From the NCBI GenBank assembly GCA_030066045.1, contig JASJCJ010000053.1, positions 1 through 45,195 on the forward strand: a stretch of 45,195 nucleotides of DNA. The letters are read 5' to 3'. The notes under the pieces were generated by a model that searched no databases, was not told the DNA's origin, and saw only the letters and a list, made by a program, of their open reading frames with translations. Of this stretch, positions 27,544 to 41,104 are shown in pieces (position 1 is the stretch's first letter; every line of letters starts with the position of its first letter). The DNA is from Calothrix sp. MO_167.B12 (GTDB taxonomy: Bacteria; Cyanobacteriota; Cyanobacteriia; Cyanobacteriales; Nostocaceae). Position numbers and translations under genes: made by a program.

Positions 27544-27565
27544 GTTTAAATAATATTATTAATTC

Positions 27566-27592
27566 GTAGGGTGGGCAGTGCCCACCTTACCC
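27566..27592. repeat. GGTGGGCAGTGCCCACC hairpin between dndC and dndD
   Basis: Reverse-orientation copy of the hairpin after alr (17253-17276). It sits in the dndC-dndD gap where it could modulate the ratio of the two proteins by transcript processing. Confidence 0.75.
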
Positions 27593-27640
27593 TTTATTCT
27601 GATGTGTCATTGCGACTAAGGTTCTCCAGATAGACGAGGT

Positions 27641-29320
27641 TTAATTTTTCTGTTTAAATTTCATATTTGCCCAATTCTTTGGTTGAGTAGTAGATTCAGT
27701 GGGGGATTCTGTTGCAGATGTATCAGCTAGATTATCTGCTTGTTCCACAGATTTGTCATCTGTTATATCTACATCACCCAATGTGAGTTGCTTGACTTTA
27801 GCAATATCTCCTTTATCTACTGCTTCTTTTAAATCCCGTTTCAGGTAAGCATTTTTAATGGCATCTTCTTGGGAGTGAGAACTAGTTTTAAAACATTGTT
27901 CTAATGCTTCATAAATTCCTACCCGTCGTGACATTTTGCGAAATTGACGCTCGGTATCTAGGAGCTTTGCCATCAATTCTAAATGCATGGCATCATCCTC
28001 ACAAATTTCTTCTAAAACACTCCATTCGTCACTACCTAAAAGACTATTCCCAGCACCGGGACGGGGGTCTATAAATTTTTCACCAGTCACTTCTTTATAT
28101 ATACGAGGTAAACTATCATCAAATTCGTTTTTTGCTTCCAGCCAAATACGACGAATCTCGCTCAATTCCTCCGTTGTAATTAAGGTAATATCGCGCATAT
28201 TTTCTGGTGCCGTATGCCGGATTTGTGTCTGCGCTGCTAATACCCTTGTCAGCCAATGTTCCCGCCAATATTTAGTATAGGGTCCAGGAATTGGTTCAAC
28301 AGATATTTCACCATCCTTATTACGTTCAAATAGTTGAACATTACCCCAAATACGCCTAAAATCTCTTTTGTCTCTGTCATCTTTGACATCTAGGTCATTG
28401 CGAATATCTAACAGAGGTTGCATCCATTCTTTCTCTTCATCATTCTGAATCATTGCCTCCATTGATCTATCTTTATTTACCATTGTGCAAACCCAACACC
28501 CAAAACGAGAATCGCCACAACTGGGAGTAGTGGTATCAATTACCAGGGGACATTCATTATCAGCAGTTGCACCCCGATATAAATTGAACAGTTCTTTATT
28601 ACTTCCTCCCCAAGGGTTGTCACATTGGTTAAGAAAAATCCAAACATCATTGTTACTCCAATCTTCTATGGGAGTATAAATCAAAGAATTAGGTAAATTA
28701 GCATTGGGACTGAGATGTTCCCGCAATCTACCCACTTGATGTTTTTTCATTGTCGCGGCTCGTTTTGAACTTTCTGCCTTACGAGTGCCCAAAATCACAA
28801 TGGTTTCACCGTTAGCGCGAACCATCTCACGAATGAATTGGTTGGCTGGAGTAATCTTCAAACGTTGGGTACACCAACGAAACTGATGACGAGGCGCAGG
28901 ATAACCTTTGCCGATGAGATTTACCCAGAATGTATCCTGCACTACTGGCTGTAATAAATGCGGCTCTATTGGCAACTCTTCTTTTTTTGCCGCTAATTTG
29001 AGATTTTGTAAAGATTTACGAACCCAAGCGGAAACAACGGGATTTTCTACTAATGTATCTGTGGTGATGACGTGTATGGTTTTAGTGCGTTTTTCTTTTG
29101 GTAGTGCTGCGATCGCATTCCATACCAGTTGTAATACGGTGCTAGAATCCTTACCCCAAGAAACTCCTATAATCCAAGGGATTTCATCATGACAGTATAA
29201 CTCTTGTATTTTTGTGGTAATTGCTTGGATATCTTCTACTAAATCCTCTACGGTTCTTTGTAGTGGTATCTTTTGCTGGTTTCCCTGAGCTTTATTTAGT
29301 GGGGTTTTGGTTGTGGTCAT
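27641..29320 (-). CDS. dndC: DNA phosphorothioation sulfurtransferase DndC
   Basis: A 559-residue PAPS-reductase-like protein. The ATP PP-loop reads SWGKDSS (residues 54-60; SGGKDSS is commoner). Conserved Cys near 270-283 (CGDSRFGCWVC) should hold a 4Fe-4S cluster. GTRKAESSKRA and RHQFRWCTQRLK are also family-typical. DndC activates the DNA phosphate with ATP so that sulfur from DndA/IscS can replace the non-bridging oxygen. The last 70 residues are low-complexity. It diverges from dndB across a 522-bp gap and is followed by dndD. Confidence 0.96.
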   Translation of the reverse strand: MTTTKTPLNKAQGNQQKIPLQRTVEDLVEDIQAITTKIQELYCHDEIPWIIGVSWGKDSSTVLQLVWNAIAALPKEKRTKTIHVITTDTLVENPVVSAWVRKSLQNLKLAAKKEELPIEPHLLQPVVQDTFWVNLIGKGYPAPRHQFRWCTQRLKITPANQFIREMVRANGETIVILGTRKAESSKRAATMKKHQVGRLREHLSPNANLPNSLIYTPIEDWSNNDVWIFLNQCDNPWGGSNKELFNLYRGATADNECPLVIDTTTPSCGDSRFGCWVCTMVNKDRSMEAMIQNDEEKEWMQPLLDIRNDLDVKDDRDKRDFRRIWGNVQLFERNKDGEISVEPIPGPYTKYWREHWLTRVLAAQTQIRHTAPENMRDITLITTEELSEIRRIWLEAKNEFDDSLPRIYKEVTGEKFIDPRPGAGNSLLGSDEWSVLEEICEDDAMHLELMAKLLDTERQFRKMSRRVGIYEALEQCFKTSSHSQEDAIKNAYLKRDLKEAVDKGDIAKVKQLTLGDVDITDDKSVEQADNLADTSATESPTESTTQPKNWANMKFKQKN

Positions 29321-29842
29321 TTATCTGTATGTTTTCTAAACAGCACCCTTTGGCTTGTTGACCCTCCACCTTGGATACATATCAGGGTAGAAAAGTTGAA
29401 ATTTGAGAGAAATACAAGGGCAAATCTAGTATTACATAAAAATGCACGGATAATGGTTTTTAAAAACTTAATATACCAATATATAATGTTGTATACATTT
29501 ATATTATGCTGATATTGTAATCAAAAATAGAGTGGATACAAGCCCTCCGCAATTGCTTTAAGCGGGGAAACCCCTTGGGTTATCTCCTGCAAAGAGGCTA
29601 CGCCAACGCAGTTGTTCATAGGGAAAACCCCAAGACTACACTGTCTCACCGCCAATGCACTGCTCTGTTGGATTCATTCGTGGAGAGTCATGACTCGCGC
29701 TACCCAGAGCGACTTCCGTCGTCGCAGGGTCGCTCGTCAAAATTGTTTTCTGAGTTTCAATCCCCTCAATTGATCGATGGGGCAATAACTCTAAATTCTT
29801 CATTCTAAATTCTAAATTCCCCTTGACCTTTTCAGAATAAAA
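29321..29842. other. Divergent dndC/dndB regulatory region
   Basis: Near dndC it is AT-rich with a palindrome-like core around 29475-29510 (ATATAATGTTGTATACATTTATATTAT is split by a few mismatches), a plausible operator for a DndB-type repressor. The half nearer dndB (29540-29760) is made of dispersed palindromes (AAGCGGGGAAACCCC, GAGCGACTTCCGTCGTCGCAGGGTCGCTC in parts) with an open frame at 29575-29808 that I regard as non-coding. Confidence 0.5.
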
Positions 29843-31441
29843 ATGAGCGATACTTTACCCGACCCCATAACTGAGATTGCCCTTCAAAATACCGAGCCAG
29901 AAAATCGGGATAAAAAGTTACTTACTCTGTTGCTAAATCAATATCTTGGTAAAAACGAACAGATTTTGGTGCAGAAAACAGAGATGGGTAATAACCATGC
30001 TTATGTGGGTTCTGTTACTTTAGAATGGTTTGCAGAACGGGTAAATTTTGCATCTGCTTTACCTCTGTTGCATCGTAAGTATAATCCCAAAACTGATAAT
30101 ATTGAAATTGATGCTGATAGTATTGATGAAATTAAACAACGTCCCCTAGATTGGTCACGTCAAGCAGCATTGGTACAGTATTTAGCGGTGCGGGAAAATC
30201 ATAAATTTCCCCCGGTGTTGGTGGTTATTAATCAACCTTGGGTAGATAATCTTCAAGCTCAGGAATGGGATAAAAAGGGACAAGGGAAAAAATCTGCTGC
30301 GGAATTTACCCCTGTGGATGAAGATGGTAAATTTGGTCTGCTGAATATTGCGGAGAAAGATGTAACTATTTATGCATTAGATGGTCAACATCGATTGATG
30401 GGGGTAAAGGGTCTAATGGAGTTATTACAAACTGGCAGTCTCCAACGCTACAGGAAAGATAAATCACCCTATGGAAGTTTTCTAAGTATTGATGATTTAG
30501 TTGAGCAGTATCGGGTATCTCCTGCTTATTTACAAAGCTTACCCAAGGAAAAAATTGGCATTGAGTTTATTTCAGCAGTTGCAGTGGGAGAAACTAGGGA
30601 GCAAGCAAGGCGGCGGGTAAGATCGATTTTTGTCCATGTTAACCTTATGGCTGCTCCCCTGAGTAAAGGACAGTTGGCACAGTTAAATGAGGATGATGGC
30701 TTTTCAATTGTGGCGAGGAAGATTGCTGTTACTCACCCCCTTTTAGAAGAACAAAAAGATAGAAATCCTCGTGTTAATTGGAATAGTGCAACGGTGGCAA
30801 CAAAGTCAACTGTTTTAACGACTTTGCAAGCTTTAAAAGAAATGTCTGAGCGATATTTAGGATATAAATATCCCCACTGGAAACCCTGGGATAAAGGTTT
30901 AATTCCTATGCGTCCAGAGGATGAAGAATTAGAGGAGGGTATCCAGGAATTTCATAATTTATTCGATTATTTATCAGCTTTACCTAGTTATAAATTGCTG
31001 GAATATGAGGAAACACCACAATTAAGAAAATTTAATTTTGAAAAGGATGGAGGTGAAGGTAATATGTTATTCCGTCCTGTTGGTCAAGTTGCTTTAGTTC
31101 AAGCTTTGGGAATCTCTATTTTCAAGAAAAGTTTATCACTCAAGGAAATATTTAAGAAGCTGAATAAGTTTGATAGACAAGGTGGTTTTAGTGGGATGGA
31201 GTATCCCCAATCTCTTTGGTATGGGGTTTTATATGACCCTAATAAGAAGCGGATACAGGTGGCTGGGAAAGATTTGGCTGTGAGGTTGTTGATTTATATT
31301 TTGGGTGGAATGGAAGATTCCATAGACCGCGCAGAATTGCGTACACATTTAGCAAAAGCCAGAACTATGGAAAATCAAACAATGGGGTTTGATGGTAATT
31401 TTGTTGAATCCAAAGAAGTAGGGCTTCCAGCAAGGTTATGA
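29843..31441 (+). CDS. dndB: DNA phosphorothioation regulator DndB
   Basis: A 532-residue DGQHR-domain protein: TIYALDGQHRLMGVKG (about residues 173-188) is the family signature, followed by FISAVAVGETREQARRRVRSIFVHVN (split here by HbrB-like polar residues) around 243-268. In other bacteria DndB-type proteins repress dnd transcription and modulate modification frequency. It is divergent from dndC-dndD, consistent with control of the shared intergenic region. The ATG at 29843 is preceded by AGAATAAAA, a weak binding site. Full length, with no sign of damage. Confidence 0.94.
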   Translation: MSDTLPDPITEIALQNTEPENRDKKLLTLLLNQYLGKNEQILVQKTEMGNNHAYVGSVTLEWFAERVNFASALPLLHRKYNPKTDNIEIDADSIDEIKQRPLDWSRQAALVQYLAVRENHKFPPVLVVINQPWVDNLQAQEWDKKGQGKKSAAEFTPVDEDGKFGLLNIAEKDVTIYALDGQHRLMGVKGLMELLQTGSLQRYRKDKSPYGSFLSIDDLVEQYRVSPAYLQSLPKEKIGIEFISAVAVGETREQARRRVRSIFVHVNLMAAPLSKGQLAQLNEDDGFSIVARKIAVTHPLLEEQKDRNPRVNWNSATVATKSTVLTTLQALKEMSERYLGYKYPHWKPWDKGLIPMRPEDEELEEGIQEFHNLFDYLSALPSYKLLEYEETPQLRKFNFEKDGGEGNMLFRPVGQVALVQALGISIFKKSLSLKEIFKKLNKFDRQGGFSGMEYPQSLWYGVLYDPNKKRIQVAGKDLAVRLLIYILGGMEDSIDRAELRTHLAKARTMENQTMGFDGNFVESKEVGLPARL

Positions 31442-31503
31442 AGAAATAGGAATCCGGTTTGAATGTGGAATTGACACTCCCAGCTCTGAAGAGACTGGGA
31501 TTC

Positions 31504-32685
31504 TCAGTTCGTCGTCGCAACTTGCTCAACCAGGCTTGCGCCAAGAAGAGTAGAGGTCGCAACTCCCTGAGCGTTACTTTGGGGCTGCCCGCCCCTAGCT
31601 CTTTCAAGAATGTTGATTGCTGCATTAACATCTCGTTGAAGAACACATCCACAACTACAACGATGTATACGGTCTTTTAGCTCTTTTTTGACCTTGACAC
31701 CGCAATTACTACAAAGCTGCGAAGTGTTGTGGGGTTTTACAGCAATCGCTTGACGGTTATGTTTGTCTGCAAAATATTCTAACCACTGTCTAAACTGGCT
31801 CCATGCTACATCATTGATGGATTTAGCAAAACTGTGATTTTTTACCATGTTCTTGACTTTTAAGTCTTCATAGGCGACTAAGTCGTTAGACTGTACAAGC
31901 GTGAGTGCCTCTGTCTTGACAAACTCGTTACGCTGCCTACTTACTCTTAAATGTTTTCGAGCATATACTTTGCGGGATTTACGCCGTCTTAGGGAACCTT
32001 TTTTGTGCTTGTAAATTCTGCGCTGAACGCGCTTAATATCGATTTCAGCTTTTCTCAAAAACCTAGGATTATCTACATGATTACCGTTACTATCTGAATA
32101 GAAATACTCTAGTCCAACATCTAGACCGACTTGATTTCCTGTAGGTTCTAATAGCTTTGAATTGTCAAAATCAACGGAGAATTGACAATAAAAACCATCA
32201 GCGCGACGGACTATACGAACTCTTTTAATTGATTTGATTGGGAATGTGTGAATATCCCATTTACCAAGCAATTTAAGTTCACCAATTCCTTTTTTATCAG
32301 TAAAAGTAATGCGCTTTCTGGTAGGGTGCAATTTCCAACCTGAAGTTTTATATTCTACAGAACGGTTATCATGTTGAAATCTTGGGAATCCTTTCTTACC
32401 AGGTTTCTTAAATTTGCAATTATCAAAAAATCTTTGAATTGCAATCCATGCTCTTTCGGCTGAAGCTTGTACAGCCATGCTATTTAGCTGTTTTACAAAA
32501 TTAAATTCGTTGCGTAGTTCTGTTGAATATTTATTCAAAGCAAACCTGTTAATCTTGTCTTCTTTGGATGCATCCATCCAATAACGCAAGCATTTATTAC
32601 GAATGAATTGAGTTGTACGTATAGCTTCCTCAATAGCTTGACACTTTATTTTATTAGCTTTGATTTTGTACTCCAGAACTAGCAA
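31504..32685 (-). CDS. tnpB: TnpB RNA-guided endonuclease (IS1341-type)
   Basis: A 393-residue protein. RuvC residues are all present: GLDVG (about 183-187, Asp), VAYEDLK (about 271-277, Glu) and LQRDVNAAINIL (about 347-358, Asp). The zinc ribbon is CSNCG and CSCGC (about 323-343). Residues 1-150 are the usual helical/WED part (TTQFIRNKCLRYWMDA). I chose the TTG at 32685 because a perfect AAGGAGGT sits 8 bp upstream and the N-terminus LVLEYKIKA fits the family; a longer frame to 32733 is rejected. TnpB cuts DNA complementary to a guide RNA made from the element's right end, which here overlaps the 3' end of this gene. It appears intact. Confidence 0.95.
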   Translation of the reverse strand: MLVLEYKIKANKIKCQAIEEAIRTTQFIRNKCLRYWMDASKEDKINRFALNKYSTELRNEFNFVKQLNSMAVQASAERAWIAIQRFFDNCKFKKPGKKGFPRFQHDNRSVEYKTSGWKLHPTRKRITFTDKKGIGELKLLGKWDIHTFPIKSIKRVRIVRRADGFYCQFSVDFDNSKLLEPTGNQVGLDVGLEYFYSDSNGNHVDNPRFLRKAEIDIKRVQRRIYKHKKGSLRRRKSRKVYARKHLRVSRQRNEFVKTEALTLVQSNDLVAYEDLKVKNMVKNHSFAKSINDVAWSQFRQWLEYFADKHNRQAIAVKPHNTSQLCSNCGVKVKKELKDRIHRCSCGCVLQRDVNAAINILERARGGQPQSNAQGVATSTLLGASLVEQVATTN

Positions 32686-32693
32686 CTGGCAGC

Positions 32694-32701
32694 ACCTCCT
32701 T
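32694..32701 (-). promoter_or_regulatory. Shine-Dalgarno that fixes the tnpB start
   Basis: AAGGAGGT on the minus strand, 8 bp before the TTG at 32685. It is one of the few strong ribosome binding sites in the window. Confidence 0.85.
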
Positions 32702-32759
32702 AGTTTCTTTACTTGTCCTATATATGATAACATAAACGTAGTGACAATATCAGTACAAA

Positions 32760-32897
32760 ATGAAAAAGAAAAAATTAGAGGTTCGATTAAGTGAACGAAG
32801 AATGCATAAACTGCGGCTATATGCAGTATCAGTAGACAAGACTATGACTGCTGTTATTGAAGACTTTATAGATTCTTTACCAAAACAAGGTGACTAA
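32760..32897 (+). CDS. Small ribbon-helix-helix protein, divergent from tnpB
   Basis: A 45-residue ORF. KKLEVRLSERRMHKLRLYAV forms a beta strand plus first helix and KTMTAVIEDFIDSL a second helix, the CopG/Arc ribbon-helix-helix pattern, so it is a likely dimeric DNA-binding repressor. It starts 75 bp from the tnpB start on the opposite strand, so it could control the shared promoter region. Immediately after its TAA the same frame runs into a TnpB C-terminal stub, which suggests it may instead belong to a second, decayed element. There is no strong ribosome binding site. Confidence 0.7.
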   Translation: MKKKKLEVRLSERRMHKLRLYAVSVDKTMTAVIEDFIDSLPKQGD

Positions 32898-33113
32898 AGT
32901 CACTCGCGTCGCTTATATCCCAGGTCTAAAGACACGCTTGTTTTACGCTTACCGTCTGTTTCTTATAAAAAATTCCAATGTCCCAGTTGTGGTTACACAG
33001 CTCATAGAGATTGGAATGGTGCTCGAAACATTATGATTCGAGCTTTGTCGGCAACAACCATCGATATTAAAAATGAAATTCCTCAAAGTTGCGTCGGATT
33101 AGGTACATCCCCA
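32898..33113 (+). pseudogene. TnpB C-terminal zinc-ribbon remnant
   Basis: In the frame that follows the small RHH gene the translation reads SKDTLVLRLPSVSYKKFQCP, then SCGYTAHRDWNGARNIMIRA, the second half of a TnpB zinc ribbon and the following RDxNGARNI helix with the third RuvC Asp. It lacks everything upstream and has no start. It differs from the intact TnpB next to it, so it comes from another family member. Its frame stays open to 33113 and overlaps the hisI 3' end by about 30 bp, though recognisable TnpB sequence stops near 33055. Confidence 0.8.
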
Positions 33114-33568
33114 TAGACAACTTGCGGATCGAAGGTTTTCTCTGCCTCCGTAAACTTCAAGCTTATCCCTTCGGGAGCAGAAACTGCATTTTTTCCCACA
33201 GGAATACTACGATAAAAGCAAGAACGATAACCGACATGACAACTTGCACCCGAGCCCGCAACCTCAACCCGCATCCACACACAATCTTGGTCATCATCAA
33301 TCAATAATTGTCGGACTTTTTGTACCAGTCCGCTTGTAGCACCTTTATGCCATAATTGCTGACGACTGCGACTATAATAATGGGCTTCCCCTGTTTCAAT
33401 GGTTTTGACTAAAGCTTCCTCATTCATGTAAGCGTGCATTAGCACCTCACCAGTATTAACATCGGTTGTCACCACGGGAATCAACCCGTTACCATCAAAT
33501 TTAGGAGCAAGCTGGAAACCTTCTTCCACCTGTTCTACAGAGATGCGGGGACTAAATAGTTGATTCAT
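33083..33568 (-). CDS. hisI: Stand-alone phosphoribosyl-AMP cyclohydrolase, Cys-deficient paralogue
   Basis: A 161-residue HisI without the HisE domain that most cyanobacterial HisIE proteins carry. Family stretches: [12 protein letters not shown] (about 42-53), [18 protein letters not shown] (63-80) and [13 protein letters not shown] (108-120). The reaction opens the adenine ring of PR-AMP in histidine synthesis, normally with one zinc bound by three Cys. Two ligands remain (C110, C117), but the DCDxD segment reads DDDQD (91-95), so the first Cys is Asp (a Cys follows at 96). A palindromic Fur/Zur-type site lies 34 bp upstream. Both facts suggest a zinc-sparing paralogue induced by zinc shortage. 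Whether another hisIE exists cannot be seen here. Confidence 0.93.
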
Positions 33569-33601
33569 AACCAGAAGTGTTAATTTTGATATAATTGGGC
33601 A

Positions 33602-33616
33602 TGATAATCATTATTA
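33602..33616. promoter_or_regulatory. Fur/Zur-type operator 1 (hisI)
   Basis: TGATAATCATTATTA, a 7-1-7 inverted repeat with one mismatch from the cyanobacterial Zur pattern TGATAATnATTATCA, 34 bp upstream of the hisI start. Confidence 0.75.
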
Positions 33617-33756
33617 TTCAAAATTAGTCTAAATATTATATCTACTCCAATCGAATTTATCGGTAAAAATTCTGTAGAACCTTTACTGCTAGCATTAAAA
33701 TTAGCAATACTCCAGGGAGTCGTTTCGCTCCGGGCGCTCCGCGCCCGCCGTCGGCA

Positions 33757-33868
33757 CCCGCAATGATTTTCGTTCTCTGTCTTCCATCTGGCACGACCAG
33801 AAGCAGCAAGCTCGACAACATTATCTTTGGGAATATAGCGATCACTGCCATAAAAATTTCCCCTTGAT
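33757..33868 (-). pseudogene. DDE transposase C-terminal remnant
   Basis: One minus-strand frame reads GNFYGSDRYIPKDNVVELAA then SGRARWKTENENH, which resembles the C-terminal catalytic-Glu helix (RARWKxENE) of IS4-like transposases. There is no start, and stops occur within 30 residues upstream. It is a short relic; the family call is tentative. Confidence 0.45.
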
Positions 33869-34012
33869 TATAAATCATCCCGCAATGATGCAACGCCCAA
33901 ATGATAGTTTTACCAAATGGTAGTGATATGGTTGATGTCATTACTGGCGAACCCGGACTCAAACATGATATAACCTTCGGATCGGGAATATTGAGACACA
34001 TTTGACCCTCAA

Positions 34013-34131
34013 CAAAAATTTAAGGGAGATTTAGCTTATCAAGGAGAAGATTTAATCGACACTCCAATTAAAAAACCCAAAAAAAGAATTAACAATTGAA
34101 CCAAAAGAAGAAAATAGAGAATTTTCATCAT
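34013..34131 (+). pseudogene. IS5-like transposase fragment, frameshifted
   Basis: Reads QKFKGDLAYQGEDLIDTPIK then KPKK, and continues after a shift in an A-run as KELTIEPKEENREFSS, the typical region before the catalytic Glu of IS5-group DDE transposases (GDKAYxG...TPxKKPK...KEEN). Neither end is complete. It lies on the plus strand, opposite to the relic at 33757. Confidence 0.55.
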
Positions 34132-34240
34132 TGACTAGCACAAAAATCATCCTTGCATTACCACGATTTAAACTAGTCACAGTAAAGCTTTTATCTTTTT
34201 TGGAGATGTCTAATATACAGGCTACTTTTGTTAGAGATGT

Positions 34241-34438
34241 CTACTGCTTTTTACATCGCAAGCACTTACTCGCGACTCCATTACATTTGTTTCCATATTT
34301 AGGACATCCGGTAGCATAAGTCTCCCGTTGTGATATCTCTTGACAGTATTGACAAATGAAGTTGTAAACCCTGGTATGGATAATTCGGTCATGTGCTTTG
34401 ACATTATATTCCCGGACATGAATTTTTTTGCTTGGCAT
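34241..34438 (-). CDS. 65-residue Cys-rich putative zinc-binding protein
   Basis: It starts [18 protein letters not shown] and carries six Cys in two clusters: ICQYCQE, then CPKYGNKC and CLRCKK at the C-terminus, with several His. This spacing suggests one or two structural or storage zinc sites. It is not a canonical SmtA metallothionein. The operator-like palindrome at 34467-34481 lies about 30 bp upstream, so expression is probably metal-responsive. A longer frame to 34486 would include the operator and is rejected. I do not recognise the family; zinc-finger-type regulator, zinc store or ribosome-associated protein are all possible. Confidence 0.65.
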
Positions 34439-34466
34439 AGTTTTAATAAAAATGGTAAGTGGACAA

Positions 34467-34481
34467 TGATAATGATAATCA
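34467..34481. promoter_or_regulatory. Fur/Zur-type operator 2 (Cys-rich gene)
   Basis: TGATAATGATAATCA, an imperfect 7-1-7 palindrome positioned just upstream of the 65-residue gene on the minus strand. Confidence 0.65.
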
Positions 34482-34575
34482 CTCAAGGTTTGACAAACAT
34501 CAAAGTAAAAAAAATAGGGATAAAATTTCTATGGTTATTACCTTATAAACTAAAATTGTCGAGTAAAATTAATAA

Positions 34576-34595
34576 GATAATGATAATCATTATTA
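34576..34595. promoter_or_regulatory. Fur/Zur-type operator 3
   Basis: GATAATGATAATCATTATTA. This matches the classical E. coli Fur box GATAATGATAATCATTATC at 18 of 19 positions and also contains the cyanobacterial Zur-like TGATAATCATTATTA. It lies about 220 bp upstream of the GlcG/HbpS-like gene. Confidence 0.75.
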
Positions 34596-34815
34596 TATGT
34601 CTTGGGGTGCAGCCCAGGGTAAACGCAAGAAAATTTAGATGTTATGTCAGCTAGAATGTAAGAAAATCTAAGCTTTTAGAACTTTAAGCACTCAATACCA
34701 TCGAAAGTTAATTAAATATGCATTTTTCAAACGTCTCAGTGTCGAAATTGACAATCTTTCCAAAGAGATGATACTCAGGTAAGGTAACACAAATCTATTA
34801 CAAGGAGCAGGAAGT

Positions 34816-35211
34816 ATGGTGACACTAAACGACGCGCGTCGGGTGATTGCGGCAGCGGAGAAAAAGGCGGAGGAGATTGGTCAGCCTATGAATATCGCGG
34901 TTGCTGATAGCGGAGGCAACTTGGTTGCACATGTGAGGATGGATGAAGCTTGGATTGGCAGCATTGATATTTCTATTAAGAAGGCATACACATCACGTGC
35001 TTTCGACATAGCTACTCTGAACCTTGCCGAACATAGCCAATCAGGGGGCCAGTTCTTCGGGATACATGCGTCAAACGATGGGCGTGTAATGATCTTTGCC
35101 GGAGGGATACCTTTGAAGCGAGATGGTAAGGTTGTTGGGGCAATCGGTGTCAGCGGTGGGTCAGGAGAGCAAGACCATGCAGTGGCAGAAGCCGGGGCTG
35201 CGGCGTTCTAA
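34816..35211 (+). CDS. GlcG/HbpS-family (DUF336) protein
   Basis: A 131-residue protein. It has the family pattern MNIAVADSGGNLVAHVRMD (about 25-43), then SIKKAYTSRAF (about 55-65) and GGIPLKRDGKVVGAIGVSGG (about 96-115), ending in AEAGAAAF. Members bind haem, iron or cobalamin-like ligands or accompany dioxygenase and glycolate genes; some are secreted sensors, but no signal peptide is present here. A good ribosome binding site (AAGGAG) lies 10 bp before the ATG. It sits inside the Fur/Zur-marked cluster, so a role in metal or haem handling is an inference from context. Confidence 0.88.
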   Translation: MVTLNDARRVIAAAEKKAEEIGQPMNIAVADSGGNLVAHVRMDEAWIGSIDISIKKAYTSRAFDIATLNLAEHSQSGGQFFGIHASNDGRVMIFAGGIPLKRDGKVVGAIGVSGGSGEQDHAVAEAGAAAF

Positions 35212-35308
35212 CTGCTGCGATGCGCTGTCTAAGGGGTCAAATGACCATCCGTACAGAAAACCCCGTCAAACACCACCTTCTCTGTGCACAGGTATTTATG
35301 AACTAGTA

Positions 35309-35341
35309 GAATCTCCCGCGTAGAACGCGGGAGAGTGTCAA
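35309..35341 (+). repeat. Solitary IS1341-type right end
   Basis: Hairpin TCTCCCGCG-TAGAA-CGCGGGAGA (35312-35334) followed by GTGTCAA. The same layout ends the tnpB element at 31472-31501. No tnpB precedes it; the upstream neighbour is the GlcG-like gene. Confidence 0.7.
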
Positions 35342-35394
35342 TTACAACATTACCCCCAACTGAAAATTGCTATGGTTGCAAGTTATCCTGTGCT

Positions 35395-37044
35395 TCAAGT
35401 TGCCCAGATCAAATAACCGCCCCAAGCCAGAATGAAGGTAAACATGATCGCCGCGATCGCTTGTCTTAGCATCAATCTCAAAGCAAATTTGGGTGATTGC
35501 TCACGAGCGATTGTCAGTGCTGTCACCAGACAGGGTAACAGTACCCCGGCTAGATAAACGCCTGTAAGGATTTGCACAGGGGACAACAGGCTGACCGTAT
35601 TGGGTTCAGCAAATAGCAGTAGCCCGTCTTTGCGAACTGATGCCAGAATCACAGGTAATGCTGCTTCCGGTGGCAGCCGAAACAAACCCATTGTTGGATC
35701 GATCAACCGACTCAAACCATTCAAAACACCCAACCAATCCAGGACAGAGGCAATCAACGCGATCGCCAAAAAGATGGGAATAGCATTGGTGAAGAACTGG
35801 TTGAGGGTTCCCTTTGTTCCGCGCCAAATGGCTGACCATCGAGGAACTTCCAGGAAAGTGCGATGCTCAATCATCAGTCGGTTTTGGGGAGAACGAGCCG
35901 ACTTGGGTGAAATTAAGCGAGTGTAAATCAACGTTGTAATCGTCAGGTAGACTAGGTAAGGAATCACCAGGTAGGGCAAGTTTGCCGCACTGAACACTCC
36001 CAGTGTGGCACCAAACTGGTAAGAACAGGCCGAACCAAAGGCGATCGCTGAAGTACAGGTTTTGCGAGAACAACTGGAGCAGGCACGGGTGCTGATCACG
36101 GCTGGCACATTACAACCAAACCCCATAATAACGCGCACCAAATTTCGTCCCGATAAGCCGAAGGGACGTAACAACGGATGCAAAGCAATGGTAATTCGTT
36201 CGACTAAACCACTGGCTTTGTAAGTACCCAGAAATAGAGCATAAAGAATGACCGTTGGCACTGCCCAGACAAACAGCAACGGTCCCATTGTTACCAAGCC
36301 ATAGGGTCCAATCAAAATTTCCTTGGGCAGAGATGGTAAGCCAGAAAAGGCTTCTACAGTTGGGCTGACCAATCCCTGTATGAGTGGATCAACAATCCCT
36401 GCAAACGTATTGGCAAACCAGACAGCAAGGACGGCGGGTATCAGCAGCAGAATGATCGCCAACAGCCAACCCAAACGAGGATGCTCCAGCAGGGTTGGAT
36501 GTGGTTCAATCCGCCATCCCAAGGTCATCGGTTGCAGTTGAGTAGAAAATGCAGTGGGCTGCTCAATCGCAGTTTTAATTTCCTGGCGTTGCATTGCGGT
36601 CAAGTTTCGAGCATCAACGGTCATCAACGGGAGATTGGCTGTCTGTTGCCAGCGGCGAATAACCTGCTGGGTAGACTCACATGGCAACACTTTATCCCAA
36701 AATGTCATGACCACAATACCCTGTTTGCCGTCCACCAGGGGCAGTAAATCCGCCAGATCCTCATCAGCATGGGTTGCTTTCACCACCAACAAGATCCTGT
36801 CACCCTTCTGTAATTGTTCTAATGCGGATCGAGTGGTTGTCGTATCAGAACGATACAAAATCCCGGGTGTATCGATAAACATCATACCGTCTCCCATGTA
36901 GCGCTCACAGGTAATTGTAGAGCCACGAAAATTGCTGCTGTAGGGCGTGCGATGGGTCAGAGAGGCAATCAATTGAGATTTGCCGGTATTCTCTTTCCCA
37001 ATAACAACAATTGTGCGTTGAGTAGAGGCAGTGGGGTGAGACAT
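35395..37044 (-). CDS. FeoB-like GTPase/metal permease
   Basis: A 549-residue protein. The N-terminal G domain has G1 GKENTGKS (residues 16-23) and G3 DTPG (58-61). The G4 position reads TFWDK (114-118) instead of NKxD, so nucleotide specificity may differ. From about residue 200 come about eight to ten membrane segments with two Gate/nucleoside-recognition halves; the FeoB signature GFGCNVPAV is at about 306-314. Right after it lies an unusual Cys cluster (ACSSCSRKTC...SAC, about 318-337). No FeoA-like gene accompanies it. I start at the ATG at 37044, 19 bp after the upstream flavoprotein stop; ATGs inside the upstream gene (37080, 37173) are rejected. It imports a divalent metal in all likelihood. 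The operator upstream and gene neighbours favour zinc, the family favours iron. Confidence 0.88.
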   Translation of the reverse strand: MSHPTASTQRTIVVIGKENTGKSQLIASLTHRTPYSSNFRGSTITCERYMGDGMMFIDTPGILYRSDTTTTRSALEQLQKGDRILLVVKATHADEDLADLLPLVDGKQGIVVMTFWDKVLPCESTQQVIRRWQQTANLPLMTVDARNLTAMQRQEIKTAIEQPTAFSTQLQPMTLGWRIEPHPTLLEHPRLGWLLAIILLLIPAVLAVWFANTFAGIVDPLIQGLVSPTVEAFSGLPSLPKEILIGPYGLVTMGPLLFVWAVPTVILYALFLGTYKASGLVERITIALHPLLRPFGLSGRNLVRVIMGFGCNVPAVISTRACSSCSRKTCTSAIAFGSACSYQFGATLGVFSAANLPYLVIPYLVYLTITTLIYTRLISPKSARSPQNRLMIEHRTFLEVPRWSAIWRGTKGTLNQFFTNAIPIFLAIALIASVLDWLGVLNGLSRLIDPTMGLFRLPPEAALPVILASVRKDGLLLFAEPNTVSLLSPVQILTGVYLAGVLLPCLVTALTIAREQSPKFALRLMLRQAIAAIMFTFILAWGGYLIWAT

Positions 37045-37063
37045 GGGGGAATAAAGAGTGAGT

Positions 37064-38191
37064 TTAGCAGACACAGTCATTGTCGCAGCAGGAGAGATCC
37101 TCAAGAAACATCCCTGACTGTCGGTAAAACTCAAGAGGTGTGGGATCGATGCCAAGGCGTTGGGCGATCGCATTTGCAACAACAGCAAAACGCTGGCGAA
37201 ACTTGTAGATAAAGCAGAAGATGAGGTTACTGTGCCGTACAGAAGGCCCAACTACAAATAATCCGGGGGTGATGGTAGATTCGTCCTCTTCAGTTAATCC
37301 AGCATAGCCTTCAGACCAGTTAAACAAATGGGCAATTTGTTTCAAACTGCCCTCAAATCCCGTACAGAGAATGGGTTGGGTAGGTGACACCCACTTGTTA
37401 TATTCGCTATAAATGGCATAGCCACCAGGAACGGCTTTCACTTCTTCGACCGCGACATCGTCAATCAAATCTAGCCGCCCAGTAGAGTAACAAAACTCGG
37501 CTCGCTCAAGGGTATAGGGAGATAAGGAAATACTGGGATCAGTATCGGGGTTTGCCCAAATGCCAGTGCGATCTAAAACTTTGACTCGTTTGTTTAATGC
37601 AACTAAATTGTACGCAGCATCCATGCCACTTTCATAGCCACCGATGATCGTAAATTCGTCCCCTGACAAATGAGTCCAAGATTGAACCTGAGAATTATGT
37701 AAACATAAATCTGCACCAGGAAAAGGAGTTAAGTTGGGATATTGAAATTCCCCAGCAGCCCAAATCAGAAATTGGGTTTTGAGAATGCCATCAGGGACAT
37801 GAACCAGGAATCCTTTGCACTGTGGTAAAGGTTCAATATGAAGAACTTCAACGCCTGTATAAACCAGGAGCCCAAAGAAATCTGCAACCTTCTCTAAATA
37901 CTGAGCATATTGCTTGCCCGTCAGATGTTCTCGTCGAAAGGCAATGGCAGGAGAAGTTTTGGGGGCGATCGCGTTCAAATCAAGATTTCCAAAGCCATGA
38001 CTGGGAAAAGATGGAGTAATGAAATGCATCTCCTGGGGCCACCGCCGAAAGGACTCACCAATTTGATGCCGCTCCAGGATGGCGAAGTCATCTAATCCCA
38101 GATCTGTCAGGACAGCACCAATGCCAATCCCTGCTGCACCTGCACCCACAACAAGGACATTAAACTCTTCCAGCTTTTCCATGAGGCTCAA
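37064..38191 (-). CDS. FAD/NAD(P)-dependent oxidoreductase with Cys-rich tail
   Basis: A 375-residue YpdA/flavin-monooxygenase-like flavoprotein. The FAD Rossmann motif VVGAGAAGIGIG is at about residues 14-25, and a second dinucleotide fold IIGGYESGMDAAY is at about 182-194. FVVGPSVRHSNLIFCFIYKFRQRFA (in two parts, about 312-336) resembles the C-terminal FAD contact. The protein ends in SCCDNDCVC, four Cys in the last eight residues, a likely metal-binding or thiol-transfer tail. It is first in a two-gene run with the FeoB-like permease (19 bp apart) under the near-perfect operator at 38212-38226, so it may reduce or release metal for that permease. The start could also be the ATG at 38182. 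Confidence 0.88.
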   Translation of the reverse strand: MSLMEKLEEFNVLVVGAGAAGIGIGAVLTDLGLDDFAILERHQIGESFRRWPQEMHFITPSFPSHGFGNLDLNAIAPKTSPAIAFRREHLTGKQYAQYLEKVADFFGLLVYTGVEVLHIEPLPQCKGFLVHVPDGILKTQFLIWAAGEFQYPNLTPFPGADLCLHNSQVQSWTHLSGDEFTIIGGYESGMDAAYNLVALNKRVKVLDRTGIWANPDTDPSISLSPYTLERAEFCYSTGRLDLIDDVAVEEVKAVPGGYAIYSEYNKWVSPTQPILCTGFEGSLKQIAHLFNWSEGYAGLTEEDESTITPGLFVVGPSVRHSNLIFCFIYKFRQRFAVVANAIAQRLGIDPTPLEFYRQSGMFLEDLSCCDNDCVC

Positions 38192-38211
38192 AGACAGTTA
38201 AACAGTTAAAA

Positions 38212-38226
38212 TGATAATTGTTATCA
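38212..38226. promoter_or_regulatory. Fur/Zur-type operator 4 (flavoprotein-FeoB-like operon)
   Basis: TGATAATTGTTATCA, a palindrome whose symmetry extends to AAAATGATAA/TTATCATTTT. It is the best of the four sites and lies 20 bp upstream of the flavoprotein start. Confidence 0.8.
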
Positions 38227-38504
38227 TTTTACCGGAATCGTTAGTATATTGAAGCCCTGCAATTTATATATTTACCGATCTGGTTAAGGTGTCATTGAAA
38301 GGAATGCTTCATTGGTAATACGCTTTGAAGTGCGAAATGTGGGTTGATGATTGAAGTTGGTTGAGTCGAGATCAAAAAATTAGTGCTAACTCGAAAAATT
38401 CAGAAATTGGGTTTGGAAATCGTCTTAAGAGTGTAAGGAGAGAGGATCGAAATTAACATTTTGTCCAAACTCCAATCAGAAGGACAAAACCAATCTCATT
38501 TTTT
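38227..38504. other. Intergenic region before the sigma gene
   Basis: 280 bp with no gene seen and no obvious repeats. It separates the metal cluster from the ECF sigma module and presumably holds both promoters. Confidence 0.5.
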
Positions 38505-39584
38505 ATGAGCTCCAGCACTGCAAATACCAGACGAAACTTAATAGATAATGCTGCAACAGAGAACGATCGCTCCCATCTAATCTCTCAGTTTTGGCCGCAA
38601 TGGCAAGAAAGTCGAGACCAGCTTTATCGCTGCTGTCTCAATATGATGAATTTTAACCGAATGGATGCGGAGGATGCTCTGAGTCAGGCAATGGTAAAAG
38701 CTTGGGAAAAGGTGCAAAAGTTCGGGGAAAAAATTACTAATTTAAAGGCTTGGTTGTATCAGGTAACTCGTAATTTTTGCATCGATCTTATCCGCAAACG
38801 TTCTTGTGGTGCTGTGGGTGTTGAAAGTATTGAATGGGTGGGAAATACTGAGAAAGTTATTACTACAGGAACAGTTGAATGTCCAGAGTCTGTTCTGGAG
38901 AGAGAGGAGAGGTCCGAACGGATACGAGGGGCGATCGCTGAGTTACCGGAAAAGTGCCGAGAGACGTTTATTTTGCATTTTTATCGGGAGCTTGACCATA
39001 AAGAAATTGCTGGACAGCAGGGGATATCTTATGATAATGTCTGCAAGCGGATATCTTTGGCACGGAAACAGCTTAAACAGAAGTTGAGCAGCTATTTTCG
39101 AGGAACTGATGGGGAAGTCAGGGAAACAAGGGAGATTAAGAAAGAAGGGGAAAAACCTGAGTTTGTGGAGGGTTATGTTGAAGTAACGGAACTCGCGGAC
39201 CAGACTATTGAGGAAACAGTGACGGTATCGCCAGAAGAGTGTTTTGAGGAAGTAAAGGCAGAAATACCTGAATTTGTAGATAGTTCTATAGAGCCAAGAG
39301 AACTTGTGAGCCAGACTATTACTAAAGTTGTCGAAGGCAGTCGGGAGTTTTTGAGATATGACTACCTCTGGCGATCGCCTTTGATGTCCCCTAGGAAAAT
39401 ATTTAGGCTGCCTGTTTTATTGTTGAGTTGGATGCAGGATAATACTACATCTGGGTTCATAACTCCTTTTATTGAAAACTTGAAATTATCCTCTAGTGCC
39501 CATTGCTCATCAAAGTATATTGGGCGAATTTGGGATCGAACATTGGCGGATACGGGAGGGGTGATCGCTATTTTTTTTGAGTAA
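38505..39584 (+). CDS. ECF-type sigma-70 factor with atypical C-terminal extension
   Basis: A 359-residue protein. Sigma region 2 is at about 25-100 (MDAEDALSQAMVKAWEKVQ then LKAWLYQVTRNFCIDLIRKR) and region 4 at about 143-205 (LPEKCRETFILHFYRELDHK then GISYDNVCKRISLARKQLKQKL). The last 150 residues are acidic and then divergent, unlike the usual tail, and may be regulatory or scrambled. Such sigma factors direct RNA polymerase to specific promoters; in cyanobacteria this group often overlaps a downstream partner gene. Here the stop (GAGTAA) lies in the 27-bp junction repeat, and the start of that presumed partner (TTGAGTAAAAATTCAG) is still readable but soon broken. A close copy of the region-4 part lies at 40550. 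Confidence 0.85.
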   Translation: MSSSTANTRRNLIDNAATENDRSHLISQFWPQWQESRDQLYRCCLNMMNFNRMDAEDALSQAMVKAWEKVQKFGEKITNLKAWLYQVTRNFCIDLIRKRSCGAVGVESIEWVGNTEKVITTGTVECPESVLEREERSERIRGAIAELPEKCRETFILHFYRELDHKEIAGQQGISYDNVCKRISLARKQLKQKLSSYFRGTDGEVRETREIKKEGEKPEFVEGYVEVTELADQTIEETVTVSPEECFEEVKAEIPEFVDSSIEPRELVSQTITKVVEGSREFLRYDYLWRSPLMSPRKIFRLPVLLLSWMQDNTTSGFITPFIENLKLSSSAHCSSKYIGRIWDRTLADTGGVIAIFFE

Positions 39585-39597
39585 AAATTCAGAAACT
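39571..39597 (+). repeat. 27-bp junction repeat, copy 1
   Basis: Eight T then GAGTAAAAATTCAGAAACT, identical to 41364-41390. Similarity continues weakly for about 15 bp (both have AATCGTC). It contains the sigma stop and the likely TTG start of a former overlapping gene. Confidence 0.9.
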
Positions 39598-39649
39598 AGT
39601 GACCAAAATCGTCATTAAGATGTACAAACAAGTAATAAAGGATAATCCT

Positions 39650-40027
39650 ATGAGTGAAATGATTGGTAATGTTGCAAAACATTCAGGAAAGGGAGCGCAA
39701 TTTTGGGCTTATGTATCACCACAAAATGATACAGAAAATGTGGTTACTAAATGGACAGTAAAGATTGAAGCAACAGATAATAATTGGGCAGGTATTATCA
39801 CATCTGACAATCCTAAGCAAATACTACAAACACCCAATTTATCAGGAATATTTAAAGTCACAGTAACAGCTTCAGGAGTTAAATTTTCTGAAAAAAATCT
39901 CAGCCCAACTTCCGATAGCAAACCCGACATTGGTTGTAACTCCAACTGTGCTGCTATGGTAGGTATTGTGGCGACAGCAGATGGAACTGATGCCAATTAT
40001 TGGACAGTATGGGACGCTCTTTGTTAA
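39650..40027 (+). CDS. Unknown 125-residue protein (cargo 1)
   Basis: I start at the ATG at 39650 with AAAGGA 7 bp upstream. The sequence (SGKGAQFWAYVSPQND, then WTVKIEATDNNWAGIITSDN and GIFKVTVTASGVKF) alternates polar and hydrophobic residues like a small beta sandwich. The last third has three Cys (CNSNC and the final residue) and GIVATADGTDANYWTVWDALC in two parts. There is no signal peptide or membrane segment. I recognise no family. It follows the sigma gene by 65 bp and is separated from it by the 27-bp junction. Confidence 0.6.
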   Translation: MSEMIGNVAKHSGKGAQFWAYVSPQNDTENVVTKWTVKIEATDNNWAGIITSDNPKQILQTPNLSGIFKVTVTASGVKFSEKNLSPTSDSKPDIGCNSNCAAMVGIVATADGTDANYWTVWDALC

Positions 40028-40252
40028 TTCAGAATCACAACGTCTCGCCAACTCCACAACTTTTAACAACACATCCACAGCAAGAGGTGAAGTATCAACG
40101 GCAGCTAACAAAACAATAGGACGAGTGATCGCTACTTTTGTCGGCTCGACTTCTCCTTTTTGTAAGAGTTTCGGTGCAAAAGTAGGTATTGCCCAAGCTC
40201 CCAAGGGTGCTGTGACTAGGATGGATAGGGTAGCGATCGCCCTTTTTCTCAA
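40013..40252 (-). pseudogene. Relic of a cation:proton antiporter C-terminus with Usp-like segment
   Basis: Minus-strand reading KRAIATLSILVTAPLGAWAI then FAPKLL resembles the last helix of Na+/H+ antiporters. It is followed in frame by RPIVLLAAVDTSPLAVDVLL and KVVELARRCDSEL, like the first strand and helix of a universal-stress domain. It overlaps the 3' end of the 125-residue gene by a few codons, has no upstream antiporter sequence and no proper end. I read it as an orphan fragment. Confidence 0.5.
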
Positions 40253-40525
40253 AAGCGATCGACCAAAATTGGGACATTTCTCTAGAGCAAATAACCGTTA
40301 GAAAAGAGATTTGTGAGTGATGGCAACTTGCATTTTTTCCAGTAACTCCGAAAGAGGAAGTGCCCCAAATCCCCAGCATGGCACGTATAGCCAAGGGCAT
40401 TCAAGAAAGGCATCATGATGATCATTACCTTCAATTGTTGTCTTCAGGTTGCGTCAGGTTAAGCCAGTGGTGGTATAGGTTTCGGGGTGCTTGTCACCCC
40501 GTGAGAATTTCTTCAGCAGTATCAA

Positions 40526-41104
40526 ATGCTACTCACACGCCGAGACTTGACAGGAACGGTTGAATGTCCAGAGTCGGTTCTGGAGAGAGAGGAGAGGTCG
40601 GATATGATACGAGAGGCGATTGCTAAGTTGCCGGAAAAGTGTCGAGAGACGTTTATTTTGCATTTTAATCAGGAGCTTTCCCATAAAGAAATTGCCGAAC
40701 AGCAAGGGATATCTTATGACAATGTCTGCAAGCGGATATCTTTGGCACGGAAATGGCTTAAACAGAAGTTGAGTCCCTATTTTCGAGAGTCGGAGTCGGA
40801 AGTAGGGGCAAAAGGCTGTTCGTCCCTACAGATGTCAGGGTCGAGTCAGTCTCCTACCCCAGAAGAAAATGGGGAACAGCAGCAGCAGATAAGGTCGCAA
40901 GATGATAAGAATGTATTAGAGACGGAGACTGTATCGGTTGAAAGTGAGATAGCAAAAGTTCAACCATTTCCTAATAATAATGCTATATATAGTTGCCATT
41001 CCATTACTCCATCAGGCAATCGCCAATTTATCGCTGGGAATTCGTGGATAATTTATAAGTTAGTCTATACACTCCGTATTTTCCCTGGCTTCGACACGGG
41101 ATAA
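40526..41104 (+). pseudogene. Truncated second copy of the ECF sigma factor (region 4 only)
   Basis: From 40550 to about 40783 the DNA closely matches 38873-39105 of the intact gene (TGTVECPESVLEREERS, then LPEKCRETFILHF and GISYDNVCKRISLARK). Everything upstream (sigma region 2) is missing and replaced by unrelated sequence, so it cannot be a working sigma factor. The frame continues to 41104 with a different, Gln/Glu-rich tail. It could survive as a region-4-only protein but is more simply a broken duplicate. Confidence 0.8.

Follow-up and report, generated by a model that had tools for sequence, protein, structure and literature searches.

Which metal regulator governs a small gene island in the cyanobacterium Calothrix sp. 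MO_167.B12, and what do its last two genes, which encode a FeoB-like GTPase-permease (FeoBL) and a flavoprotein (FlavoP), contribute to the cell? The island lies on a contig of 45,195 nucleotides (JASJCJ010000053.1; contig C289 of a 7.66 Mb genome in 321 contigs), the whole of which is referred to as the window in the following. Its gene set spans positions 33083 to 38191 and comprises hisI2, an open reading frame (ORF) for a 65-residue cysteine-rich protein, a gene for an HbpS-like protein, and the genes for FeoBL and FlavoP; all but the HbpS-like gene are encoded on the minus strand. As judged from sequence, the island is probably a Zur-controlled zinc-starvation set, the last two genes of which would encode an uncharacterised FeoB-type zinc importer and its redox partner. 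The regulation and the zinc context are well supported, and zinc import by FeoBL, with metal and direction predicted, is our best guess and a reasonably likely one.

Zur-type palindromes upstream of the island genes

An earlier note on this stretch had described four Fur/Zur-type palindromes in front of the named genes, and all four are found (33602-33616, 34467-34481, 34581-34595 and 38212-38226); each departs from TGATAATNATTATCA at a single position. A further copy at 34575, with two mismatches, overlaps the third, and positions 34579-34591 are an exact copy of AATGATNATCATT, the core of the cyanobacterial Zur consensus (PMC9337993). With the starts as used, the boxes lie 34 bp upstream of hisI2 and 29 bp and 21 bp upstream of the ORFs of the 65-residue protein and FlavoP, respectively, and the end of the box at 34581-34595 is about 220 bp upstream of the HbpS-like gene. 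In the window, the 15-mer is matched 13 times at three or fewer mismatches, compared to 4.46 expected, and none of 100 shuffles reached 13.

A genome-wide scan, as proposed in the earlier note, finds no exact copy of the 15-mer and 19 places with one mismatch, four of which fall inside this 4.6 kb; at two or fewer mismatches, the 15-mer is not enriched across the genome (160 places versus 190 for the reversed control), and neither is the 13-mer core in excess at one or fewer mismatches (57 versus 95 for the control). Because enrichment at two or fewer mismatches is lacking, the motif on its own proves little; since the looser matches are no commoner than the reversed control, the case rests on conservation, and genome-wide counts are not used as evidence. 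The exact core occurs at five places in the genome, four of them outside the window: one inside an ORF (contig C29), two beside other ORFs and one (L021:1501-1513, contig C144) whose start lies 118 bp upstream of a metH-type gene. Two of the four adjoin ORFs with no evident zinc role, these ORFs being taken without a domain scan. Genes of the metH type recur near FeoBL in four cyanobacterial loci.

Conservation was assessed in the sequences upstream of cyanobacterial FlavoP genes, each counted once (n = 33, window included). The exact Zur core is present in 21 of these, and seven more have a box of either form with no more than one mismatch, giving 28/33; such a box is found at none of 263 ORFs from 20 stretches of the relatives' genomes and in 9 of 6600 shuffled upstream sequences. 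These counts supersede those made before deduplication (30/43 exact, 38/43 at one or fewer mismatches). A variant in which starts were extended to the upstream start codon (21/30) was dropped, as the box then falls inside the ORF in several loci. In close relatives, the site matching that at 38212 is kept yet drifting: it reads TGATAATAATTATCA in Calothrix rhizosoleniae, TGAGAATAATTATCA in Calothrix MO_192.B10 and TGAGAACAATTATCA in Mastigocoleus MO_188.B34.

A second line of evidence comes from the gammaproteobacteria. The proteobacterial Zur box is GAAATGTTATA-N-TATAACATTTC (PMC4219657), and just before FlavoP a sequence with one mismatch to it, TGTTATGTTATAACA, is present in Pantoea and one with two mismatches, TGTTATGTTATAACG, in Klebsiella. 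In Pseudoalteromonas, all five FlavoP upstream sequences carry a two-mismatch copy of the central proteobacterial 15-mer at about -30, and P. aurantia has an additional exact copy at -179; in the shuffle control, the 15-mer was found at three or fewer mismatches within the last 60 bases in 79 of 5000 cases. These five sequences are not independent because four of them are much alike. The cyanobacterial and gammaproteobacterial boxes therefore place one gene pair behind two different Zur-box types. Together with the form and conservation of the boxes and the zinc genes in the neighbourhood described below, this makes Zur rather than Fur the well-supported candidate regulator, which would presumably bind the island palindromes. 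The single coordinated metal-starvation response postulated in the earlier note is thus well supported, with its choice between Fur and Zur narrowed to Zur by the boxes and the zinc-gene neighbours.

The FeoBL and FlavoP pair and its distribution

FeoB proper transports ferrous iron, and FeoBL shares parts of its architecture. The Pfam scan detects the G domain (PF02421, 34.3 bits, cut-off 27) and the Gate domain (PF07670, 49.8 bits, cut-off 29.6) and no FeoB_C domain, and the score of 111.8 with the FeoB equivalog TIGR00437 is below the cut-off of 315.65. In a phylogenetic tree, the 23 FeoBL rows group together in a clade of their own, separate from six FeoB-type rows (support 100/100); the tree carries a long-branch warning and omits nine shorter relatives (L051-L059), which lack the motif used for picking rows. 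An assignment as ordinary FeoB was rejected on the basis of the TIGR00437 score, the domains and the tree. A search of the whole Calothrix genome gave no match to FeoB_C; among 20 other FeoBL genomes, chosen from the 80 loci introduced below, 12 contain an FeoB_C protein in addition and eight contain none. FeoBL is thus not a simple stand-in for FeoB, since so many of these genomes possess both.

In sequence, FeoBL differs by a set of extra cysteines beside the gate motif, TRxCSxCxR and FGxACSYQ, compared to TRTLEN.RDR and PFMSC.AR in the FeoB rows; FeoB-type rows read, for instance, ...PFMSCGARLPVY, and FeoBL reads ...FGSACSYQ. In 53 aligned relatives, C311, C322, C340 and C505 are invariant and C325 is kept in at least 90%, and C330 is not general. 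Such cysteines would suit a thiophilic ion. For the structural model of FeoBL (mean predicted local distance difference test score (pLDDT) 83.4), structure comparison gives matches to FeoB G domains (8vwn among them) and a weak one to the nucleoside transporter 3tij.

FlavoP matches PDB entry 3d1c over its full length, including the CC...CxC tail. Its model (pLDDT 87.6) superposes on 3d1c with template modelling (TM) scores of 0.88/0.92, followed by the YpdA/Bdr bacillithiol disulfide reductases. C369, C373 and C375 are kept in all 42 aligned relatives, and residues 370-375 are modelled with pLDDT values under 50, which would fit a mobile tail.

The loci analysed are the best 80 of 131 confirmed relatives from a scan of named genomes, and 75 of them offer at least 1.3 kb of room for a partner gene; five were left out for want of it. 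In 70 of the 75, a FlavoP gene precedes FeoBL in the same orientation at a distance of no more than 5 kb, and in 53 of no more than 400 bp; in the window, 19 bp separate the end of FlavoP from the FeoBL ATG used. The pair is present in cyanobacteria, haloarchaea, planctomycetes, chloroflexi, verrucomicrobia, Pseudoalteromonas, SAR324 and Dadabacteria, many of these genomes being metagenome bins. Within the class, a search at an E-value of 1e-10 found FeoBL matches in 41 of 242 genomes, 17 of which (own included) have at least 70% identity, the remainder being distant FeoB-type proteins; a close copy is absent from the 12 other genomes of the family that were listed. On plasmids, tblastn yielded 547 records for FeoBL (518 covering at least 80% of it) and 538 for FlavoP, in both cases with 499 from Klebsiella and 20 from Escherichia. 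There, the two proteins bear annotations such as 'nucleoside recognition domain-containing protein', 'ferrous iron transporter B' and 'NAD(P)/FAD-dependent oxidoreductase'.

The neighbours of the pair point to zinc. According to Haas et al. (2009, PMC2770081), Zur regulons hold paralogues of HisI, PyrC, ThrRS, CysRS, QueD and DksA as well as FolE2 and COG0523 proteins, and a Zur-regulated cluster is marked there on the Klebsiella plasmid pLVPK. COG0523 GTPases (PF02492 and PF07683 in a representative) are encoded nearby in 44 of the 80 loci, compared to 1 of 20 control stretches, a small control from cyanobacterial genomes only. A Pantoea soli plasmid carries genes for dihydroorotase, ThrRS (thrS), carbonate dehydratase, FolE2, DksA, a COG0523 protein, a Fur-family protein and CysRS (cysS), followed by FlavoP, FeoBL, 6-carboxytetrahydropterin synthase and zigA. 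On a Klebsiella plasmid, the pair stands with carbonate dehydratase, folE2, dksA, a COG0523 gene, two Fur-family genes and zigA. In Haloferax gibbonsii, the plasmid order is COG0523 gene, FlavoP, a short paralogue of ribosomal protein S14, FeoBL, a hypothetical gene and hisI, flanked by ABC-transporter genes on the upstream side and metal ABC genes on the downstream side. Nine of the 80 loci, all haloarchaeal (e.g., L144:9754-9936), contain a relative of the S14 paralogue, which lies between FlavoP and FeoBL in six of the nine. Zinc-binding S14 carries CxxC pairs at places where eight of the nine paralogues read CRxT and CRQS (CRMT and CRQS in Haloferax gibbonsii) and that in L136 reads CSDT and SRQS.

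On plasmid pREC2 of Acaryochloris marina (L233), four Fur-type regulator genes surround the pair and zigA in a stretch of about 7.4 kb; three carry a Fur-family annotation and the fourth is recognized by a FUR match. One of the four directly follows FeoBL behind an exact Zur core.

Companion genes and layout of the island

The genome contains three hisI genes, a 282-aa frame with DCDSD, a copy on contig C281 with DCDAD and hisI2 with DDDQDC, so that the search for a second hisIE gene proposed in the earlier note turned up two hisI genes in addition to that of the island. The C281 copy belongs to a zinc cluster (L082) with genes for ZnuA, an ABC-3 permease, a ThrRS-type protein and CobW. Compared to PDB 1zps, HisI2 keeps D85, D87, D89, C102 and C109, and C86, which we take to be a zinc ligand, is changed to Asp (D92 in HisI2). 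C110 and C117 of HisI2 align with C102 and C109, and a new cysteine lies four residues past the changed site. Among 28 PRA-CH matches from 15 genomes, 13 are of this DDD type, 14 of DCD type and one fits neither pattern. Thirteen genomes have two copies, one of DDD type each, and the other two have a single copy of DCD type; a DDD-type hisI is thus always accompanied by a second copy (13/13). HisI2 may be a zinc-sparing stand-in for the zinc enzyme, a role that the earlier note had assigned to it and that the changed cysteine makes more plausible, with the sparing itself still a prediction.

A relative of the 65-residue protein, about 80 aa long, is found in 12 of 13 same-family genomes (own included) and in 14 of 242 in the class. 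VCxxC...YCxxC is conserved in 9 of the 11 relatives read; that in L187 differs and the reading of L194 is unreliable. The second copy in the Calothrix genome has VCKQC...YCEKC and no box at two or fewer mismatches in the 4 kb around it. The island copy has ICQYC...YGNKC and extra cysteines, and its last cysteine is Ser in Mastigocoleus testarum. Among the copies compared, only the two island copies in L111 and L113 have a box. The island protein looks like a zinc-sparing paralogue, although six cysteines remain.

The HbpS-like protein belongs to the HbpS/GlcG family and is the weakest member of the island, tied to zinc loosely and by association only. It occurs near the pair in Calothrix MO_192.B10 (99%) and Mastigocoleus MO_188.B34 (98% over a 55-residue stretch), and on a plasmid of Acaryochloris marina, an 86% identical copy lies some 6 kb away from the pair with no box nearby. 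The Pfam families of the island are PRA-CH, HbpS-like, Pyr_redox_3 and FeoB_N plus Gate, the latter in two stretches; the 65-residue protein has no Pfam match above the cut-off (Table 1).

Table 1. Genes, predicted operators and transposase relic of the island (window positions)
Feature	Positions	Strand	Basis and remarks
hisI2, phosphoribosyl-AMP cyclohydrolase paralogue, 161 aa	33083..33568	-	PF01502 5.6e-31; DDDQDC replaces usual DCDxDx
Predicted Zur-type operator of hisI2, TGATAATCATTATTA	33602..33616		Motif scan; boxes precede hisI2 also in L067, L069, L084 and L111, among other cyanobacteria
65-aa Cys-rich protein, paralogue of conserved ~80-aa CxxC...CxxC protein	34241..34438	-	
Predicted Zur-type operator of 65-aa gene	34467..34481		Motif scan; one-mismatch box at equivalent place in L111 and L113
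Two overlapping 15-mers with exact Zur core AATGATAATCATT at 34579-34591	34575..34595		Motif scan
GlcG/HbpS-like protein, 131 aa, weakest member	34816..35211	+	PF03928 2e-44
FeoBL, FeoB-like GTPase-permease, 549 aa from ATG used	35395..37044	-	PF02421 and PF07670 above cut-off
FlavoP, flavoprotein, 375 aa, C-terminal CCDNDCVC tail	37064..38191	-	PF13738 2e-92; PDB 3d1c full length
Predicted Zur-type operator of FlavoP/FeoBL pair, TGATAATTGTTATCA	38212..38226		Motif scan; position conserved in relatives
Short tnpB-like relic beside island	32979..33056	+	52% over 29 residues

Transposase relics between the genes, as reported in the earlier note, could not be confirmed: transposase pieces from the window, L084 and L113, compared with window positions 31000-41000, match only a full-length IS605-type tnpB ORF at 31504-32733 and the short relic listed above, both outside the gene set. 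The accompanying suggestion that the island was assembled or is mobile is partly borne out by its patchy distribution, the plasmid relatives and the nearby tnpB, but not by relics between the genes.

A hexapeptide protein is encoded in the zinc clusters of L106 (16756-17688) and 10 other cyanobacterial loci, often just 3' of hisI2; the one scanned also has one RuBisCO_small-like domain, like short CcmM, and a zinc-linked carboxysome-type paralogue is possible. Adjoining the island, positions 25546-31438 hold genes for DndD-like (AAA_23/SMC_N), DndC-like (PAPS_reduct) and DndB (PF14072) proteins, a set of the DNA phosphorothioation type. On the other side, an extracytoplasmic function (ECF)-type sigma-factor gene occupies 38505-39584, and an ORF at 40526-41101 has region 4 only and repeats part of the sigma-factor sequence (ECPESVLEREERS...), as if partly duplicated.

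Proposed role of the pair, alternatives and known systems

In the proposed mechanism, zinc-loaded Zur would occupy the palindromes and block transcription as long as zinc is ample; upon a fall in zinc, Zur would leave them, thereby switching on the island genes. FeoBL would act as an FeoB-type inner-membrane importer, with the GTPase domain gating the membrane part with its Gate domains, and may be tuned to Zn(II) through the extra cysteines beside the gate motif. FlavoP, which is of the NAD(P)H/FAD type with a CCxxxCxC tail, might receive zinc at the inner side and pass it on; alternatively, it might maintain the thiols of FeoBL and of chaperones (e.g., COG0523/ZigA) in the reduced state. As zinc-sparing stand-ins, HisI2 and the 65-residue protein would replace zinc-site proteins. 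The uncharacterised importer/reductase pair envisaged in the earlier note has gained the standing of a conserved unit, but import, metal and redox role are still predicted.

Several observations weigh against this reading. Four of the 33 cyanobacterial upstream sequences (L085, L118, L150 and L152) are without a box and one (L084) has a two-mismatch box only, the site at 38212 fits the 15-mer at one mismatch but not the 13-mer core, and the genome's own znu cluster (L082) has boxes only at two to three mismatches. Cyanobacterial boxes were not found in non-cyanobacterial FlavoP upstream sequences, and no proteobacterial box was found upstream in planctomycetes, chloroflexus, verrucomicrobia, SAR324 and Dadabacteria, a test that did not extend to haloarchaea; in the same five groups, no convincing inverted repeats were found upstream of FlavoP. 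FlavoP is missing near FeoBL in five of 75 loci (L110, L111, L119, L129 and L138), in one of which, L111, FeoBL itself is cut short. ABC-3 permease neighbours show no clear difference between loci (9/80) and controls (1/20), and the COG0523 control is small, as stated above. Finally, the genome has three Fur-family genes, two of which encode two CxxC pairs, and C244:2543-2878 is only a tentative candidate for the Zur gene.

The main rival, which we consider unlikely, keeps the zinc-starvation control and lets the pair import a substitute metal (Fe2+, Mn2+ or Co2+) for zinc-sparing enzymes, with FlavoP reducing ferric iron or a chelate. It is in line with the cargo of FeoB, whose type of G domain and GFGCNVPA gate motif FeoBL possesses, with the retention in HisI2 of the aspartates aligned with D85, D87 and D89 of 1zps despite the loss of one cysteine, and with the lack of an FeoB_C match in the Calothrix genome and in eight of the 20 others. 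However, the remaining 12 also hold an FeoB_C protein, and the cysteines that set FeoBL apart from FeoB would favour a thiophilic ion. Control of the island by iron via Fur, with the pair as an ordinary ferrous-iron system, would explain the FeoB-like permease and the likeness of the palindrome to the classic Fur box, but is highly improbable: the gammaproteobacterial relatives have a Zur-form box distinct from TGATAATNATTATCA, the neighbours are zinc-response genes, and FeoBL falls short of FeoB in both the missing FeoB_C domain and the TIGR00437 score. It is similarly very unlikely that the pair serves zinc efflux, storage or trafficking instead of uptake. The cysteine-rich tail of FlavoP could be read in this way, as could the CzcO flavoproteins, named for their linkage to the zinc exporter CzcD; a Zur-type repressor, however, lifts its repression when zinc is low, as expected of genes for uptake or sparing, and the pair stands among folE2, dksA, thrS and zigA.

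Known bacterial zinc importers are of the ABC and ZIP types and a few others. FeoBL and its flavoprotein partner, a widespread pair that has been little studied, may be a new kind of zinc uptake system in bacteria and archaea. It is tempting to speculate, and no more than tentatively, that the two proteins form a new importer class, in which a GTP-gated permease passes Zn(II) to the cysteine tail of the flavoprotein and a redox step releases it, and which horizontal transfer has carried through bacteria and haloarchaea, including pLVPK-type Klebsiella plasmids, as a core element of the response to zinc starvation. If true, zinc import would gain a further mechanism, a GTP-gated system of FeoB type with a redox partner. 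The pair is annotated under other names, yet it is placed in zinc-starvation islands of several phyla and of haloarchaea. HisI2, in turn, provides a clean test of whether a zinc enzyme of the histidine pathway can drop a zinc-ligand cysteine.

No published account of the pair was found in the literature searched, which covers articles in part and without their supplements. A close setting is that of the Zur-regulated zinc-sparing paralogue clusters (PMC2770081), which contain the same kinds of paralogues as the surroundings of the pair; the main text of that article makes no mention of 'FeoB', and HisI2 of DDD type, with one cysteine changed, differs from the HisI paralogues described there because those keep the zinc residues. 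The Zur regulons of Anabaena and Synechococcus 7002 (PMC6103462 and PMC4628125) share the regulator, znuABC, COG0523 and the paralogue logic, but 'FeoB' is absent from both texts, and hisI2 is mentioned once in the former, for Pseudomonas protegens. FlavoP resembles 3d1c, a Staphylococcus aureus flavoprotein titled putative monooxygenase for which no established function came to light, in full-length match and tail, and differs from it in adjoining FeoBL behind a predicted Zur box. FeoBL, finally, has the N-terminal G domain, the Gate domains and the GFGCNVPA motif in common with the ferrous-iron transporter FeoB; unlike FeoB, it belongs to a separate clade, comprises 549 aa with no FeoB_C domain and different cysteine motifs, and is accompanied by Zur-type boxes and a flavoprotein partner.

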